From Dehalococcoidia bacterium (GTDB lineage Bacteria; Chloroflexota; Dehalococcoidia; Lucifugimonadales; HRBIN23), in NCBI GenBank assembly GCA_025060295.1, contig JANXCH010000002.1, positions 62,001 to 126,000 on the forward strand: 64,000 nt of DNA, in the 5' to 3' direction. Position 1 is the first letter of the stretch; each line of letters begins with the position of its first letter. Shown one piece after another: positions 14,898 to 20,191 of this stretch. Made by a program: the position numbers and the translations under genes. The notes under the pieces were generated by a model. The model did not search any database. It saw only the letters and a program-made list of their open reading frames with translations, and had not been told where the DNA came from.

Positions 14898-14926
14898 TTG
14901 ACAATGTTGATTTGTTGACGCATTAT
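14898..14926 (+). promoter_or_regulatory. Promoter of the Rrf2-type regulator gene
   Basis: Perfect TTGACA (14898-14903), 17-nt spacer, CATTAT (14921-14926). The core contains three TTGA repeats (14898, 14907, 14914), a possible binding site for the encoded Rrf2 protein; such regulators often repress their own promoter. The stretch is clearly more AT-rich than its surroundings. Confidence 0.7.
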
Positions 14927-14969: not shown

Positions 14970-15407
14970 ATGCGGGTCTCTATGAAGGTGGACTACGGGG
15001 TGCGGGCGTTGGTGGAGTTGGCCCAGCGCTACGGCGAAGGGCCCGTGCCCACGGCCGATGTGGCCGCCCACCAGAATATCCCGGAGCCCTACCTGGACCA
15101 GCTGCTGAGCATCTTGAACAAGTCGGGGTTTGTGCGGAGCCGGCGCGGCCCCCAGGGGGGGCATATGCTGGCCCGCCCACCCCACGAAATCACATTGGAG
15201 ATGGTGATGCGCACTCTAGAAGGCACGGCGGCCCCGCTGGACTGTTTGGACGAGCCCTCGGAGTGTATCCTCTCCAGCGCCTGCGCCCAGCGGCAAATCT
15301 GGCGCTCGGTAGAGGAAGCGGTCCAGAGCGTGCTGAGTTCCACCTCTATCGCCGACCTGGCCAACCGCCAGAGGCAGCTGTCCACCCGGGGTCTGTATCA
15401 AATCTAA
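14970..15407 (+). CDS. Rrf2 family transcriptional regulator (IscR-like, three Cys)
   Basis: 145 aa. It begins with the winged-helix DNA-binding domain (KVDYGVRALVELA, then IPEPYLDQLLSIL and GFVRSRRGPQGG). Three Cys at 92, 99 and 105 are spaced almost as the IscR [2Fe-2S] ligands, so it probably senses Fe-S or sulfur status. The ATG has GGGGGAGG upstream; an in-frame ATG four codons later is possible. The sulfur operon follows directly after a terminator hairpin, and it is the obvious candidate target. Confidence 0.9.
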   Translation: MRVSMKVDYGVRALVELAQRYGEGPVPTADVAAHQNIPEPYLDQLLSILNKSGFVRSRRGPQGGHMLARPPHEITLEMVMRTLEGTAAPLDCLDEPSECILSSACAQRQIWRSVEEAVQSVLSSTSIADLANRQRQLSTRGLYQI

Positions 15408-15492: not shown

Positions 15493-16341
15493 ATGACAAC
15501 GCAGACCACCCAGCCTATGATCCTGACCCCCGAGCAGGTGAAGCGCTATAGCCGGCATATCATCATGCCCCAGGTGGGGAGCGCCGGCCAGCGCAAAATC
15601 CGCCAGGCCCGGGTCCTCATCGTGGGGGCAGGCGGACTCGGCTCCCCCGCTGCCGTCTACCTCGCCCTGGCGGGTGTGGGCACCCTGGGCATCGTGGACT
15701 TCGATGTGGTGGATCTGTCCAATCTCCAGCGCCAAATCCTCCACCATACCGATGATGTGGGGCGCCCCAAAGTCCTCTCGGCAGCCGAGAGCATCCGCGC
15801 CTACAACCCCGATGTGCAGGTGGAACTTCATGAGACCCGCCTCACGTCGGAGAACGCTTTGGACATCATCGGGCGCTATGACATCGTGGTCAACGGGGCC
15901 GACAACTTCCCCACCCGTTACCTGCTCAACGACGCCTGCTACTTTCTGAGGAAGCCCTTGGTGGACGGGAGCATCCTGCTCTTTGATGGCACCGCCACGG
16001 TGTTCGTGCCGGGGAAGGGGTGCTACCGCTGCCTGTTCCGCAATCCGCCCCCGCCGGGGGCTGTGCCCAACTGCGCCGAGGCGGGGGTGTTGGGAGCCAT
16101 GACGGGCATCGTGGGGAGCATCCAGGCCGCCGAAACCCTCAAACTGATTCTGGGCATTGGCCAGCCCCTGGTCTCCCGCCTGCTCCTGATTGACGCCTTG
16201 GCTATGGAGTTCCGCATCATCCGCCTACGGCGGGACCCCACCTGCCCCTTGTGCGGGGACAACCCCACCGTTACCCAGTTGATTGACTACGAGGAGTTTT
16301 GCGGACTGCGCCCGCCCACCAGAGAAGGGACGACGGGATAG
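15493..16341 (+). CDS. moeB: MoeB/ThiF-type E1-like adenylyltransferase
   Basis: 282 aa. RYSRHIIMPQVG opens the protein; GAGGLGSP near residue 38 is the ATP site and DFDVVDLSNLQRQ follows. PNCAEAGVLG holds the conserved Cys, and CYRC with CPLC are the structural zinc ligands. Such enzymes adenylate the C-terminal Gly-Gly of small sulfur carriers (MoaD, ThiS, CysO). No carrier gene or rhodanese domain is attached; TusA and rhodanese genes follow in the same operon. Next to a cysteine synthase, activation of a CysO-like carrier is a plausible role. Confidence 0.92.
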   Translation: MTTQTTQPMILTPEQVKRYSRHIIMPQVGSAGQRKIRQARVLIVGAGGLGSPAAVYLALAGVGTLGIVDFDVVDLSNLQRQILHHTDDVGRPKVLSAAESIRAYNPDVQVELHETRLTSENALDIIGRYDIVVNGADNFPTRYLLNDACYFLRKPLVDGSILLFDGTATVFVPGKGCYRCLFRNPPPPGAVPNCAEAGVLGAMTGIVGSIQAAETLKLILGIGQPLVSRLLLIDALAMEFRIIRLRRDPTCPLCGDNPTVTQLIDYEEFCGLRPPTREGTTG

Positions 16342-16345
16342 AACG

Positions 16346-17335
16346 ATGACTGCAGCGGCACGCTTCACTCCCGACCTGGCCGGCTTCCGCAGTGGTCTGC
16401 TGAAGCGGGACATCTTGGACGCTATCGGCAATACGCCGATGGTGCTCCTGCGGCGCATCAGCCCCAACCCCCGGGTGCGCATCTTCGCCAAACTGGAGGG
16501 GCAGAACCCTTCGGGAAGCGTCAAGGACCGCATCGCCAAGTATATGATTGAGCAGGCCGAGGCCCAGGGCCTCTTGACGCCTGACAAAATCGTTTTGGAG
16601 CCCACCAGCGGCAACACGGGCATTGCCCTGGCCATGGTGTGCAAAGTGAAGGGCTATCGTATGGTGGCGGTGATGCCCGAGTCCGTCAGCCCGGAGCGGG
16701 TGCAACTCCTCCGGGCCTATGGGGCCGACATCGTGTTTACCCACGGGAGCCGGGGCACCAACTACTCCATCTTGGTGGCGCGGGAGATGGTGGAGCGGGA
16801 GCCGGAGAAGTACTTTATGCCCTACCAGTATGGCAACGAGGCTAATCCCCGCGCCCACTATGAGACCACCGGCGCTGAGATCCTGTCCGCCTTGCCGGAG
16901 GTGGATGTGTTCGTGGCGGGGCTGGGCACAGGGGGCACCCTCATGGGCGTGGGACGACGCCTGAAGGAGCATAACCCGTCGGTGAAGGTGGTGGCCGCTG
17001 CCCCCGACCCGGAGGAGACCATTGAGGGCCTGCGCCGCCTGGAGGACGGCTTCGTGCCGCCCATTTTGGACCTCTCCCTGCTGGACGGGCGCATTATGGT
17101 GAAGAGCCAGGAGGCCTTCGCCACCACCAAGGAACTGATGGACAAGGAAGGCATCTTCGCCGGCGTCTCCTCGGGTGCGGTGGTGGCGGTGGCCAAACGC
17201 CTGGCGACCCGTATGCAGGGGGGAAACATCGTCTGCTTGTGCGCCGACGGGGGCTGGAAGTATCTGAGCACCAGCCTGTGGACGCGGGAGTATTCCGCCC
17301 TGGAACCCGAGGTGCGGGGGAAGGTATGGTGGTAA
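16346..17335 (+). CDS. cysK: PLP-dependent cysteine synthase (CysK/CysM family)
   Basis: 329 aa. The PLP lysine is K60 in NPSGSVKDR, the substrate loop TSGNTG is at residues 87-92, and GTGGTLMGVGR binds the phosphate. The family makes cysteine from O-acetylserine (or O-phosphoserine) and sulfide or a protein thiocarboxylate. The ATG lies 4 nt after the moeB stop, so the two are coupled. The MoeB neighbour raises the possibility of a CysM-like thiocarboxylate-using enzyme, but the sequence alone does not decide that. Confidence 0.93.
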   Translation: MTAAARFTPDLAGFRSGLLKRDILDAIGNTPMVLLRRISPNPRVRIFAKLEGQNPSGSVKDRIAKYMIEQAEAQGLLTPDKIVLEPTSGNTGIALAMVCKVKGYRMVAVMPESVSPERVQLLRAYGADIVFTHGSRGTNYSILVAREMVEREPEKYFMPYQYGNEANPRAHYETTGAEILSALPEVDVFVAGLGTGGTLMGVGRRLKEHNPSVKVVAAAPDPEETIEGLRRLEDGFVPPILDLSLLDGRIMVKSQEAFATTKELMDKEGIFAGVSSGAVVAVAKRLATRMQGGNIVCLCADGGWKYLSTSLWTREYSALEPEVRGKVWW

Positions 17336-17475
17336 CCCCTCCGATGGGCACTCCTGGTAGGAGCGTGCGCCCCTTGAGGGGGCCCGCAGACACCCCTCCT
17401 CCACCCGTGTGGGGGATACAGGTGAGGGGAATGCTTTCCTCCCCGTGCACAGAACACATCAGGAAAGGAGGGAAC

Positions 17476-17520
17476 ATGGGCCTCTGTTGTAGGTGTTGTG
17501 GCGTTGCCAGGGGGCCATAA
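17476..17520 (+). CDS. 14-aa cysteine-rich leader peptide
   Basis: MGLCCRCCGVARGP, with four Cys codons (two TGT-TGT pairs at 17485-17490 and 17494-17499) in 14 codons. It has a strong ribosome site (GGAGGG, 4 nt from ATG) and lies directly before a terminator hairpin. The peptide itself is unlikely to have a function. Its translation is read as a sensor of charged Cys-tRNA for the downstream sulfur genes, as with classical amino-acid attenuators and the Cys-rich leaders known before sulfur genes in actinobacteria. Confidence 0.8.
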   Translation: MGLCCRCCGVARGP

Positions 17521-17584
17521 GGCGGGCGCTTGGGCGTAGCGCCTTTGGGCCCCCGAAGCACCCTTCGGGGGCTTGCTGTTTCTT
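17510..17584 (+). promoter_or_regulatory. Cysteine attenuator: antiterminator, nested hairpin and terminator before tusA
   Basis: Three elements can be paired by eye. Terminator: GCCCCCGAAG (17549-17558) with CTTCGGGGGC (17563-17572), loop CACC, followed by a T-rich tract to 17584. Antiterminator: GGGGGCC (17510-17516, the last leader codons) with GGCCCCC (17548-17554), which uses up the left arm of the terminator. A hairpin GGCGC/GCGCC (17525-17543) is nested between the two antiterminator arms. A ribosome stalled on the Cys codons would leave 17510-17516 free; one that reaches the stop at 17518 would cover it, so the terminator forms. Confidence 0.8.
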
Positions 17585-17616
17585 AATGCAACTCACATCA
17601 CGCAAAGGAGGCGTGG

Positions 17617-17856
17617 ATGACAACGCAGGTCAACGAGCATCAGACCGTGGACACCTCCGGCACCTTGTGTCCTCTGCCGGTGATCGCCGCCAAACAGGCC
17701 ATGGATAAACTCGGCAAGGGCCAGGTGCTGAAAATCATCGCCACCGACCCCGGCGCCAAAGCCGACATTCCCAGTTGGGCACGGGCGTCGGGGCATACCC
17801 TCCTCAAGCAGGAGGTGCAAGGCAAGCGGTTCGTCTTCTGGGTGCAGAAGGGATAG
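17617..17856 (+). CDS. tusA: TusA-family sulfur carrier protein
   Basis: 79 aa. The TusA signature CPLPV has its persulfide-carrying Cys at 18, in VDTSGTLCPLPVIAAKQAM. AAAGGAGG precedes the ATG. TusA proteins accept persulfide sulfur from desulfurases or rhodaneses and pass it to DsrE-type partners or to tRNA thiolation. The dsrE2 and rhodanese genes directly downstream are the expected partners, and the whole set stands behind the attenuator. Confidence 0.94.
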   Translation: MTTQVNEHQTVDTSGTLCPLPVIAAKQAMDKLGKGQVLKIIATDPGAKADIPSWARASGHTLLKQEVQGKRFVFWVQKG

Positions 17857-17865
17857 GAGGTGCCT

Positions 17866-18411
17866 ATGGCCACAGCCGTGCAGACAAGACCCCTACAGGA
17901 ACTCCTGGAGCAGTTCGCTGCGCTCCACCGCCAGGCCCACGAGCAGGAGACCAAGCGGGTGGCCATCGTGGCCTCAAAGGGCACTCTGGATATGGCCTAT
18001 CCTGCCCTCATCCTGGCCACCACGGCCGCCTCTATGGGGATGGAGAGTGCGGTCTTTTTTACCTTTTATGGATTGAACATCCTGCACAAGCGCAAATCCC
18101 GCTCCCTGCGGGTGGCCCCTCTGGGTAATCCTGCTGCCCCCATCCCTGTGCCCAACATCGTCGGGGCCATTCCCGGCATGACCCAAGTGGCCACCTGGGT
18201 GATGCAGTGGATGATGCGTCGGCAGAACATGCCCTCGGTGCAGACCTTGCTGCAGACGGCCAAGGGCATGGGCGTCAAGCTCATCGCCTGCTCTACCACT
18301 ATGGGCGTGATGGGGGTAAAGGAGAGCGACCTGATAGACGGGGTGGACATCCAGGGGGCGGCATCCTTCCTGGAGTTCGCCTCCAAGGCGCACATTACAC
18401 TGTTCATCTAG
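17866..18411 (+). CDS. DsrE2-like (DsrE/DsrF superfamily) sulfurtransferase
   Basis: 181 aa from the ATG at 17866, after [28 protein letters not shown] opens the DsrE fold, with a hydrophobic stretch [10 protein letters not shown] typical of the membrane-associated DsrE2 subgroup. [13 protein letters not shown] carries the conserved Cys near residue 145. DsrE2 proteins bind persulfide and work with TusA and rhodanese in cytosolic sulfur transfer, best known in sulfur oxidizers. The TusA-DsrE2-rhodanese order is the conserved arrangement. Confidence 0.9.
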
Positions 18412-18433
18412 GCTACACACAAGGGAGGGAAAC

Positions 18434-19303
18434 ATGAGTACCACTGCCGGCTATGCCCATCCTGTCTTGGTGGAGACCTCGTGGGTCGCCGAGCATCTCA
18501 ACGACCCGAAGGTGCGCATCGTGGAGGTGGATGTGGACACCTCCGCCTACGAGCAGGGGCACATTCCCGGGGCGGTGGGCTGGAACTGGAAGACCCAATT
18601 GCAAGCCTCGCCCCAGCGGGATGTGGTCTCCAAGGAGGGGTTTGAGGCCCTCTGCCGCGCCTCCGGCATCGCCAACGACACCCTGGTGGTCTTCTACGGG
18701 GATAACAACAACTGGTTTGCTGCCTACGCCTACTGGCTGGCCCGTTATTACGGGCATCCCCGGGAACTGCTGCGCCTGCTGAACGGCGGACGGGCCAAGT
18801 GGGTGGCCGAGAAGCGCCCCCTGACGCGGGAGGTCCCCTCGTATCCGCCCACCACCTATACCGCCCAGGCCCCCGACTTCACCGTGCGGGCCTTCCGGGA
18901 CTATGTGTACCTGTCGGTGGTCAATAAAGCGCAGGTGGCGCTGGTGGATGTGCGCTCGCCACGGGAGTACTCGGGGGAGTTGCTGGCGCCCGAGAACCTG
19001 CCCCAAGAGGGCTCCCAGCGGGGAGGCCACATCCCTGGGGCGATCAACATCCCCTGGAGTCTGGCGGTGCGGGAGGACGGGACCTTCAAATCGGCCGAGG
19101 AGCTGCGGGCGCTGTATGCGGGGCGGGGCATCCTCCCCGACAAAGAGGTGGTAACCTATTGCCGCATCGGCGAGCGGAGCGCCCACACCTGGTTCGTGCT
19201 CCAGGAGTTGCTGGGCTACCCCAAAGTGCGCAACTACGACGGCTCGTGGACGGAGTGGGGGAGCGTGGTGGGGGCCCCCATCCGCACCGGCCCCCAGCCC
19301 TAA
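18434..19303 (+). CDS. Two-domain rhodanese (thiosulfate/3-mercaptopyruvate sulfurtransferase)
   Basis: 289 aa with two rhodanese domains. The N-terminal one ([19 protein letters not shown]) has Asp-Asn-Asn in place of the catalytic Cys loop and is inactive. The C-terminal one ([24 protein letters not shown]) has the catalytic Cys243 in TYCRIGERS. The CRIGER loop is closer to thiosulfate sulfurtransferases than to the CG(S/T)G loop of mercaptopyruvate enzymes. It would load sulfane sulfur onto TusA or DsrE2. GGGAGGG precedes the ATG. Confidence 0.93.
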
Positions 19304-19313
19304 GGGGCAGAGA

Positions 19314-19349
19314 GGGGTGCGCTTCTCCGCACGGGGAGGAGCGCACCCC
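19314..19349. terminator. Strong hairpin between convergent genes
   Basis: GGGGTGCGC plus TTCTCC (19314-19328) pairs with GGAGGA plus GCGCACCCC (19335-19349), a 15-bp stem with one G-T pair. It sits between the rhodanese stop and the end of the minus-strand ATPase gene and could stop both transcripts, but neither side has a good T-run. Confidence 0.6.
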
Positions 19350-19357
19350 CCTTCGTC

Positions 19358-20191
19358 CTACGGATGCGGGGTGGTGGCGTAGGACAGAGTGCGCTGGCGC
19401 ACGGCGTCCATGTCCACGATACGGGCTTGCACCAAACTCTCCAGAAAGGCGGCGCGTTGGGTAACCTCGGCGCACAAGGCGGGATGGGTGAGCCCTAGCC
19501 GCTGGGCCCAGACTCGCCCCGGGGGGCCGTCCACAGCGTGGCGGAAGGTGGATGCCCGTCCATCCCACCAGGCTAGTCGCGCCGTGGGGGGGTACCGACT
19601 GGATGGGGTCGGGGGGAGCACAGCATACACTTGGGACAACCGACGGACGATGCCTCTCGGCTCGTAGACCACATCCACAAAGCCCAACAGGTGCAAGGAA
19701 GAGGCCAACTCGCAACTGACGCTGTTGGGCAAACCCATCAGTTGTTCAAAGACCTCCTGGGGGGTGGTGGCGTGCATGGTGGCACCCAGGGAGTAGCCCT
19801 TGCTCAGGGCCTCAAAGACGCGCCGCACCGCCGGCCCCCACAGGTAGGAGGGAAGATGGTCGCTAATCTCATTCACCATAATGTAGGTGCGGGCGGGGTC
19901 GGTCTCCTGAAGCCAGGCGAAGTCCTCCCGCCAGCCCCAGGTGTAGACCACTTCGTAGTGAGGGGGGAGGAGGGCAATCAGGGCGGTGAGGAGGGTGGTC
20001 TTGCCGGCCATTGGGGGCTCGGAGGCGAAGATGAGGGAGGCCTTGCGCTCCACCGCCAGCCACAGGAGGGCGGCCAAAGGGGTATCTAAGGTGCCAGCCT
20101 GCACCAGTTCCACGATGGAGAGGGGTTGGGCCAGCCAGGCGTGGCCCCCCCACCAGCCATACGGCCGATGCCACCGCTTTCCGGCGTGCAC
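19358..20191 (-). CDS. VirB11/GspE-like secretion-type P-loop ATPase
   Basis: 277 aa from the GTG at 20191, preceded by AGGGGG and 11 nt beyond the stop of the VWA gene. The core resembles the CpaF/VirB11/PilT ATPase domain: FASEPPMAGKTTLL (P-loop with Glu in place of the first Gly), YIMVNEISDHLP (Walker B-like) and GATMHATTPQEVFEQLMG, the His-box of secretion ATPases. It lacks the usual N-terminal domain and no pilus or secretion genes are near. Pairing with a VWA protein suggests a dedicated two-gene system of unknown role. Confidence 0.75.
   Translation of the reverse strand: MHAGKRWHRPYGWWGGHAWLAQPLSIVELVQAGTLDTPLAALLWLAVERKASLIFASEPPMAGKTTLLTALIALLPPHYEVVYTWGWREDFAWLQETDPARTYIMVNEISDHLPSYLWGPAVRRVFEALSKGYSLGATMHATTPQEVFEQLMGLPNSVSCELASSLHLLGFVDVVYEPRGIVRRLSQVYAVLPPTPSSRYPPTARLAWWDGRASTFRHAVDGPPGRVWAQRLGLTHPALCAEVTQRAAFLESLVQARIVDMDAVRQRTLSYATTPHP

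Follow-up and report, generated by a model that had tools for sequence, protein, structure and literature searches.

The window analysed here, the whole 64,000-nucleotide stretch, carries a sulfur-gene cluster in which an Rrf2-family regulator, a ThiF/MoeB-type adenylyltransferase and a cysteine synthase are followed by tusA, dsrE2 and a two-domain rhodanese (Table 1). Between cysM and tusA lies a compact element made of a leader ORF and alternative RNA stems. A consensus scan detected one plus-strand promoter-like site in all the intergenic gaps of the cluster, that ahead of rrf2, and none between cysM and the leader. In its own genome the leader looks intra-operonic rather than operon-starting, and we infer a single rrf2-thiF-cysM-tusA-dsrE2-rhd operon with an internal attenuator that sets the output of the distal half alone. 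The Rrf2 regulator heads this same gene cluster; CymR belongs to cysteine metabolism, and a second layer of cysteine control is possible.

Table 1. Features of the sulfur-gene cluster and of the element between cysM and tusA (window coordinates)
Feature	Position	Strand	Basis or remark
Promoter-like site TTGACA-17-CATTAT, 5' of rrf2	14898..14926	+	Consensus match only
Rrf2-family regulator	14970..15407	+	CymR score above IscR score, both below cut-off
ThiF/MoeB-type adenylyltransferase, adjoins cysM	15493..16341	+	Pfam ThiF, E 1e-84
cysK/cysM-type cysteine synthase, just 5' of the attenuator	16343..17335	+	NCBIfam cysKM above cut-off
Shine-Dalgarno sequence of leader ORF (AAAGGAGGG)	17464..17472	+	Also AAAGGAGGG in HRbin23
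Leader peptide ORF MGLCCRCCGVARGP, then stop	17476..17520	+	Sequence read directly; ortholog MGICCRCCAVPRGP in L002/L012
Regulatory codons TGT TGT AGG TGT TGT (Cys-Cys-Arg-Cys-Cys)	17485..17499	+	15/15 nt identical in HRbin23
Antiterminator 5' arm GGGGGCC, within last leader codons	17510..17516	+	Sequence, fold model
Hairpin enclosed by antiterminator (AAGGCG ... CGCCTT)	17519..17545	+	HRbin23: different possible hairpin instead (GGGGC ... GCCCC)
Antiterminator 3' arm GGCCCCC, overlaps terminator left arm	17548..17554	+	Sequence, fold model
Intrinsic terminator, perfect 10-bp stem, loop CACC	17549..17572	+	Consensus scan; innermost pair C-G for G-C in HRbin23
Interrupted U-tract TTGCTGTTTCTT	17573..17584	+	Sequence read
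tusA, CPxP motif present	17617..17856	+	Pfam TusA, E 2.7e-23
dsrE2	17866..18411	+	Pfam DrsE_2, E 1.5e-47
Two-domain rhodanese / sulfurtransferase	18434..19303	+	Pfam Rhodanese

The leader ORF reads ATG GGC CTC TGT TGT AGG TGT TGT GGC GTT GCC AGG GGG CCA TAA, with 4 Cys among its 14 codons, at 17485-17490 and 17494-17499. It is thus a short translatable frame with its own ribosome site and a run of candidate regulatory Cys codons, and it is conserved. Pairing of such a leader with a terminator is unlikely by chance: in 500 dinucleotide-shuffled versions of the region, a leader holding three or more Cys within 7 codons never arose together with a terminator, and the window contains a single match to the CCxCC codon pattern TGYTGYNNNTGYTGY where 0.15 would be expected. 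Across the 1.61-Mb host genome TGYTGYNNNTGYTGY has 7 matches, and the window site is the sole one that passes the leader-plus-terminator scan. Conservation in relatives, discussed below, is a stronger argument against chance than these shuffle and pattern counts, as judged from sequence comparison.

Downstream of the leader, the terminator arms GCCCCCGAAG (17549-17558) and CTTCGGGGGC (17563-17572) enclose the loop CACC and are followed by TTGCTGTTTCTT. This hairpin is the strongest of three terminator matches in 4.7 kb by consensus scan. An intrinsic terminator with a U-rich tail therefore stands between the leader and the first structural gene; the weak point of the element is that the U-tract is interrupted. 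The 5' arm of the antiterminator would be covered by a ribosome at the stop codon and exposed when a ribosome stalls at the Cys codons. The original prediction had described a 14-codon leader with two Cys-Cys pairs and its own ribosome site, a perfect 10-bp terminator and a perfect 7-bp antiterminator; on direct reading of the sequence, all of these are present and every coordinate is right.

The arrangement is very probably a transcription attenuator in which the translating ribosome reports the supply of charged tRNA-Cys. A ribosome entering at 17464-17472 would read the 14-codon leader behind the polymerase. With ample Cys-tRNA, it would reach the stop codon at 17518 and cover 17510-17516, blocking the antiterminator, so that the hairpin at 17549-17572 would form and transcription would end before tusA. 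With scarce Cys-tRNA, it would instead stall within 17485-17499, leaving 17510-17516 free to pair with 17548-17554; this antiterminator would block the terminator, and tusA-dsrE2-rhodanese would be transcribed. The sequence itself shows the ORF, the stems and their geometry, the conservation of a Cys leader with a terminator, and another such element ahead of siroheme/sulfite-reductase genes in the host genome; stalling, termination, read-through and the cysteine response at the window leader are what we infer.

A fold model of the window leader switches as had been proposed. The terminator probability is 0.07 with the ribosome at the first Cys codon and 0.00 at the last, against 1.00 at the stop codon, so in silico the antiterminator and terminator are mutually exclusive and gated by ribosome position. 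Without a ribosome the probability is 0.00 and the untranslated RNA folds into the antiterminator, because nothing sequesters the antiterminator arm. Taken alone, the competing helix of the window shows a modest gain over shuffles (p = 0.03).

The nearest relative, the sister genome HRbin23, carries the leader MGICCRCCAVPRGP at the same place before tusA. Its Cys block is retained while the flanking codons, the enclosed hairpin and the spacer have diverged, and the innermost terminator pair is altered on both sides. Among 11 close dsrE2 orthologs (10 within the host's order and 1 elsewhere in the class), a Cys-containing leader and a terminator precede tusA in 9, and 7 satisfy a strict definition that demands 3 Cys within 7 codons and a stop. 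The tusA leaders of other families are MIQCKALCCVCRCAGESPG, MVGSATLCCCACTCPREGFP, MTYQIVIECICTCTREGPG, MACLCTCTWEGPSG, MCTRCRLGDG and the GTG-started ...GLCCCLCSTL, each followed by a terminator. These peptides are highly divergent, and their sole recurring trait is Cys richness. Recurrence of a Cys leader with an alternative terminator before tusA, in HRbin23 and in several families of the order, supports the attenuator reading of the original prediction. That prediction had also named tusA-dsrE2 pairs lacking the element as a counter-case; such pairs are not the rule among close relatives, yet two of the 11 (L003 and L005) keep tusA-dsrE2 with no convincing leader-terminator element.

One further ortholog is irregular. 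In L006 the leader is conserved, but the position aligned with the TAG stop reads TCG and the ORF runs through the terminator, which may reflect decay, a sequencing error or a different mode. A scan of the other tusA/dsrE2 upstream regions, 281 stretches counting duplicates, found no Cys leader with terminator. On a DsrE2 tree the leader-bearing genes fall into three groups and three state changes are needed, so gain, loss and transfer are not separable. Named Chloroflexota loci in the same tree assign the host to that phylum. An Anaerolineae locus, L021, has a CTCTC ORF and a strong terminator 306 to 75 nt 5' of tusA, with a promoter-like TTGACA between; it is possibly a more distant case of a Cys leader. 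The seven genomes of the order of G355 contained no further case.

The host genome holds a second predicted Cys attenuator outside the window, on the minus strand of contig C2 (about 29416 down to 25858). Its leader, MLTRFSGIAGCCCPP (start C2:29416), comes with a TTGACA box, a terminator of 11 bp and a competing helix, likewise of 11 bp, that contains one bulge, and is followed by genes for a siroheme synthase, a tetrapyrrole methylase and a NirA/SiR-type reductase; the HRbin23 counterpart is MVIWYSGICECCCPS. A strict leader-plus-terminator scan of the whole host genome returned nine places, of which the tusA site and MLTRFSGIAGCCCPP are the convincing ones. The remaining weak matches were judged, from their mostly long GTG- or TTG-started peptides, to be probable chance occurrences.

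The original prediction had proposed a covariance search in relatives, and this recovered the same architecture at tusA and at other sulfur genes. A covariance model, R1, built from five tusA leaders and run on 250 genomes of the order, returned tusA sites and, in five genomes, Cys leaders ahead of a NirA/SiR-type reductase gene. Of 237 genomes of the order, 177 carry a gene of this reductase type, nitrite and sulfite reductases being not separable by profile searches. When 60 sulfite-reductase upstream regions were sampled (L265-L324; picked to spread over families, biased to high-scoring matches and non-random), a strict Cys leader with a terminator was found in 32, compared with 0/60 on the opposite strand. 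Another 11 regions have a two-Cys leader with a terminator, for example MRFPDDLFHLCTCPP. The reductase operon thus seems to be the main carrier of the Cys attenuator in the order.

The enrichment in the sulfite-reductase leaders is specific: of the two-codon residues, Cys alone stands out, at 30/60 (last 350 nt) against at most 1/60. Enrichments of Leu and Thr in the residue control were set aside, as they fall mostly in the same regions as the Cys matches (16/18 and 7/9), an overlap that is expected because of other-frame readings and CTCTC-type peptides. Weak R1 matches lacking a Cys leader (for example L160, L161, L163, L164, L172 and L174) look like ordinary terminators, and a DNA pattern, TGYNNNTGYACCYRGGAGGG, proved too narrow, with two sites only in 393 genomes.

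Other R1 matches include a Cys leader, MDICKTYTYKATCCCLCTPL, between thiF and cysM (L170, genome G215) and another, MAREACFCCCTTSCLPERCTR, before a sulfate ABC transporter binding protein (L173, genome G043). Some 2.9 kb ahead of the reductase gene, L291 and L305 carry six-codon reverse-strand leaders, MCCCPD and MCCCPG, with a terminator. In these two genomes they precede a Sulf_transp (YeeE/TsuA-type) sulfur transporter gene. The leaders at cysM, the sulfate-binding protein and the sulfur transporter are few cases.

Since the same architecture precedes sulfite reductase, cysM, the sulfate-binding protein and the sulfur transporter, the sensed amino acid matches the pathway; at the window, likewise, the candidate regulated genes fall in the cysteine pathway, given the adjacent cysM and the sulfur-gene targets in relatives. 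It is probable that in this Chloroflexota order siroheme/sulfite reductase, sulfate and thiosulfate-type import, cysM and a TusA-DsrE2-rhodanese relay form one cysteine-attenuation regulon, with intrinsic terminators and often leaderless ORFs. The window site is, on this comparative evidence, a predicted member of that Chloroflexota regulon.

Folding of the other leaders bears on how such a switch might operate. The HRbin23 tusA leader switches partially in the fold model. In most other relatives equilibrium folding favours the terminator at every ribosome position, and the own sulfite-reductase leader likewise gives the terminator at every position; with no ribosome, too, the model predicts termination for that leader. 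In most of these other relatives the antiterminator is favoured before the right arm of the terminator has been made. Because the terminator wins at equilibrium, switching in these relatives and in the own sulfite-reductase leader would have to be kinetic. For 42 leaders we also took the duplex that the sequence beyond the Cys codons forms with the left terminator arm and compared it with shuffles. The competing helices are stronger than the shuffles, 14/42 individually at p < 0.05, with a Fisher p of about 3e-12 that overstates the significance because related leaders are not independent.

Could the leader sense Cys-tRNA while the output is translational, through tusA ribosome-site access or coupling, or Rho-dependent, with the hairpin incidental? 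The polycysteine ORFs of mycobacteria function although they have no intrinsic terminator (PMC1262725), PMC13236596 describes them as translation attenuation, citing Canestrari 2020 for M. smegmatis, and the window U-tract is imperfect. However, nearly every homolog has an intrinsic terminator at this position, mostly with a clean U-tract, and the tusA ribosome site takes no part in the competing stems. We consider such an output improbable.

Still less probable is that the hairpin merely terminates an upstream rrf2-thiF-cysM unit and that the Cys ORF is coincidental. The hairpin does follow cysM in the host genome, where a promoter before the leader was not found by the consensus scan. In contrast, L006, L007, L009 and L102 have no cysM upstream and carry a promoter-like TTGAC(A/G) directly 5' of the leader, and therefore the terminator there lies inside the tusA transcript; moreover, Cys leaders recur at other sulfur genes. 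Equally slight is the chance that the peptide itself acts, as a metal- or redox-binding microprotein or as a thiol- or metal-sensing arrest peptide. Metal binding by CCRCC is conceivable, and redox effects of the mycobacterial Cys ORFs were a speculation of Shell et al. (PMC4633059). Leader lengths, however, run from 6 to over 20 residues with varied spacings (CCC, CxC, CCxCC), and the only shared features are Cys content and a position close to the stop and terminator, so codon sensing fits better than a protein fold.

Transcription attenuation by Cys codons, the preferred reading, can be set against known systems. Cys-specific T-boxes or SAM riboswitches control sulfur genes in Firmicutes. 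The window element resembles them as RNA control of Cys and sulfur genes through termination, but it would sense through translated codons, and 16000-19500 gave no Rfam covariance-model match, T-box or riboswitch, up to E = 5. With the trp/his-type attenuators of Proteobacteria and Actinobacteria it shares a leader rich in the amino acid predicted to be sensed, mutually exclusive antiterminator and terminator, and an antiterminator arm near the leader stop codon. In contrast to them, the window leader would sense Cys, lies inside an operon and lacks a clear stem 1:2 that would shield the antiterminator arm. As no such stem guards that arm, untranslated window RNA is predicted to read through; classical trp attenuators terminate when the leader is untranslated, whereas the window leader folds the antiterminator in the model.

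Seliverstov and colleagues described terminator-free Cys leaders in Mycobacterium, Propionibacterium and Bifidobacterium (PMC1262725), and Shell and colleagues a Cys ORF before mycobacterial cysA2, a sulfurtransferase gene, noting such ORFs as possibly the first bacterial cysteine-directed attenuation (PMC4633059). The window leader is likewise a Cys-run ORF 5' of sulfur genes that include a sulfurtransferase gene, but it has a ribosome site, no nearby promoter and a terminator, in contrast to the leaderless mycobacterial ORFs, which lack an intrinsic terminator (PMC1262725). Closer in mechanism is the uORFC-8-2 motif before cysS in Rhodobacterales, a predicted ribosome-mediated attenuator that also combines a Cys-codon uORF with an intrinsic terminator (PMC8632094); it differs in phylum, in its cysteinyl-tRNA synthetase target and in its leader, where tandem Cys codons stand at 14 and 15.

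The kind of control is thus already known, from trp-type attenuation, mycobacterial polycysteine ORFs and the predicted Rhodobacterales cysS attenuator. The novelty originally suggested for the window element divides accordingly: its TusA-DsrE2-rhodanese target appears new, while a Cys leader before a sulfurtransferase gene has a precedent at mycobacterial cysA2 (PMC4633059), and for cysS an attenuator combining Cys codons with an intrinsic terminator had been predicted (PMC8632094). A search of the open-licence literature found no report of a leader-peptide attenuator, for cysteine or otherwise, in Chloroflexi/Chloroflexota. Judged by that literature, three things appear to be novel for cysteine attenuation: its phylum, its regulon and its tusA-dsrE2 target.

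Few descriptions of cysteine leader-peptide attenuation exist so far. The regulon points the TusA-DsrE2-rhodanese cassette, whose role is uncertain, and the NirA/SiR-type reductase towards cysteine synthesis; if true, it would put the cassette in cysteine assimilation and not in energy-yielding sulfur oxidation. It also offers dozens of natural switch variants, leaderless or led by a ribosome site, operon-starting or internal, usable for studying switch evolution. In 19 leaders, selected for a visible TTGAC box, 6-12 nt separate the best -10 box from the start codon downstream of it. This spacing suggests transcripts that would start at or next to the start codon, like those of the mycobacterial Cys ORFs, and leaderless ORFs look common among the Chloroflexota relatives too.
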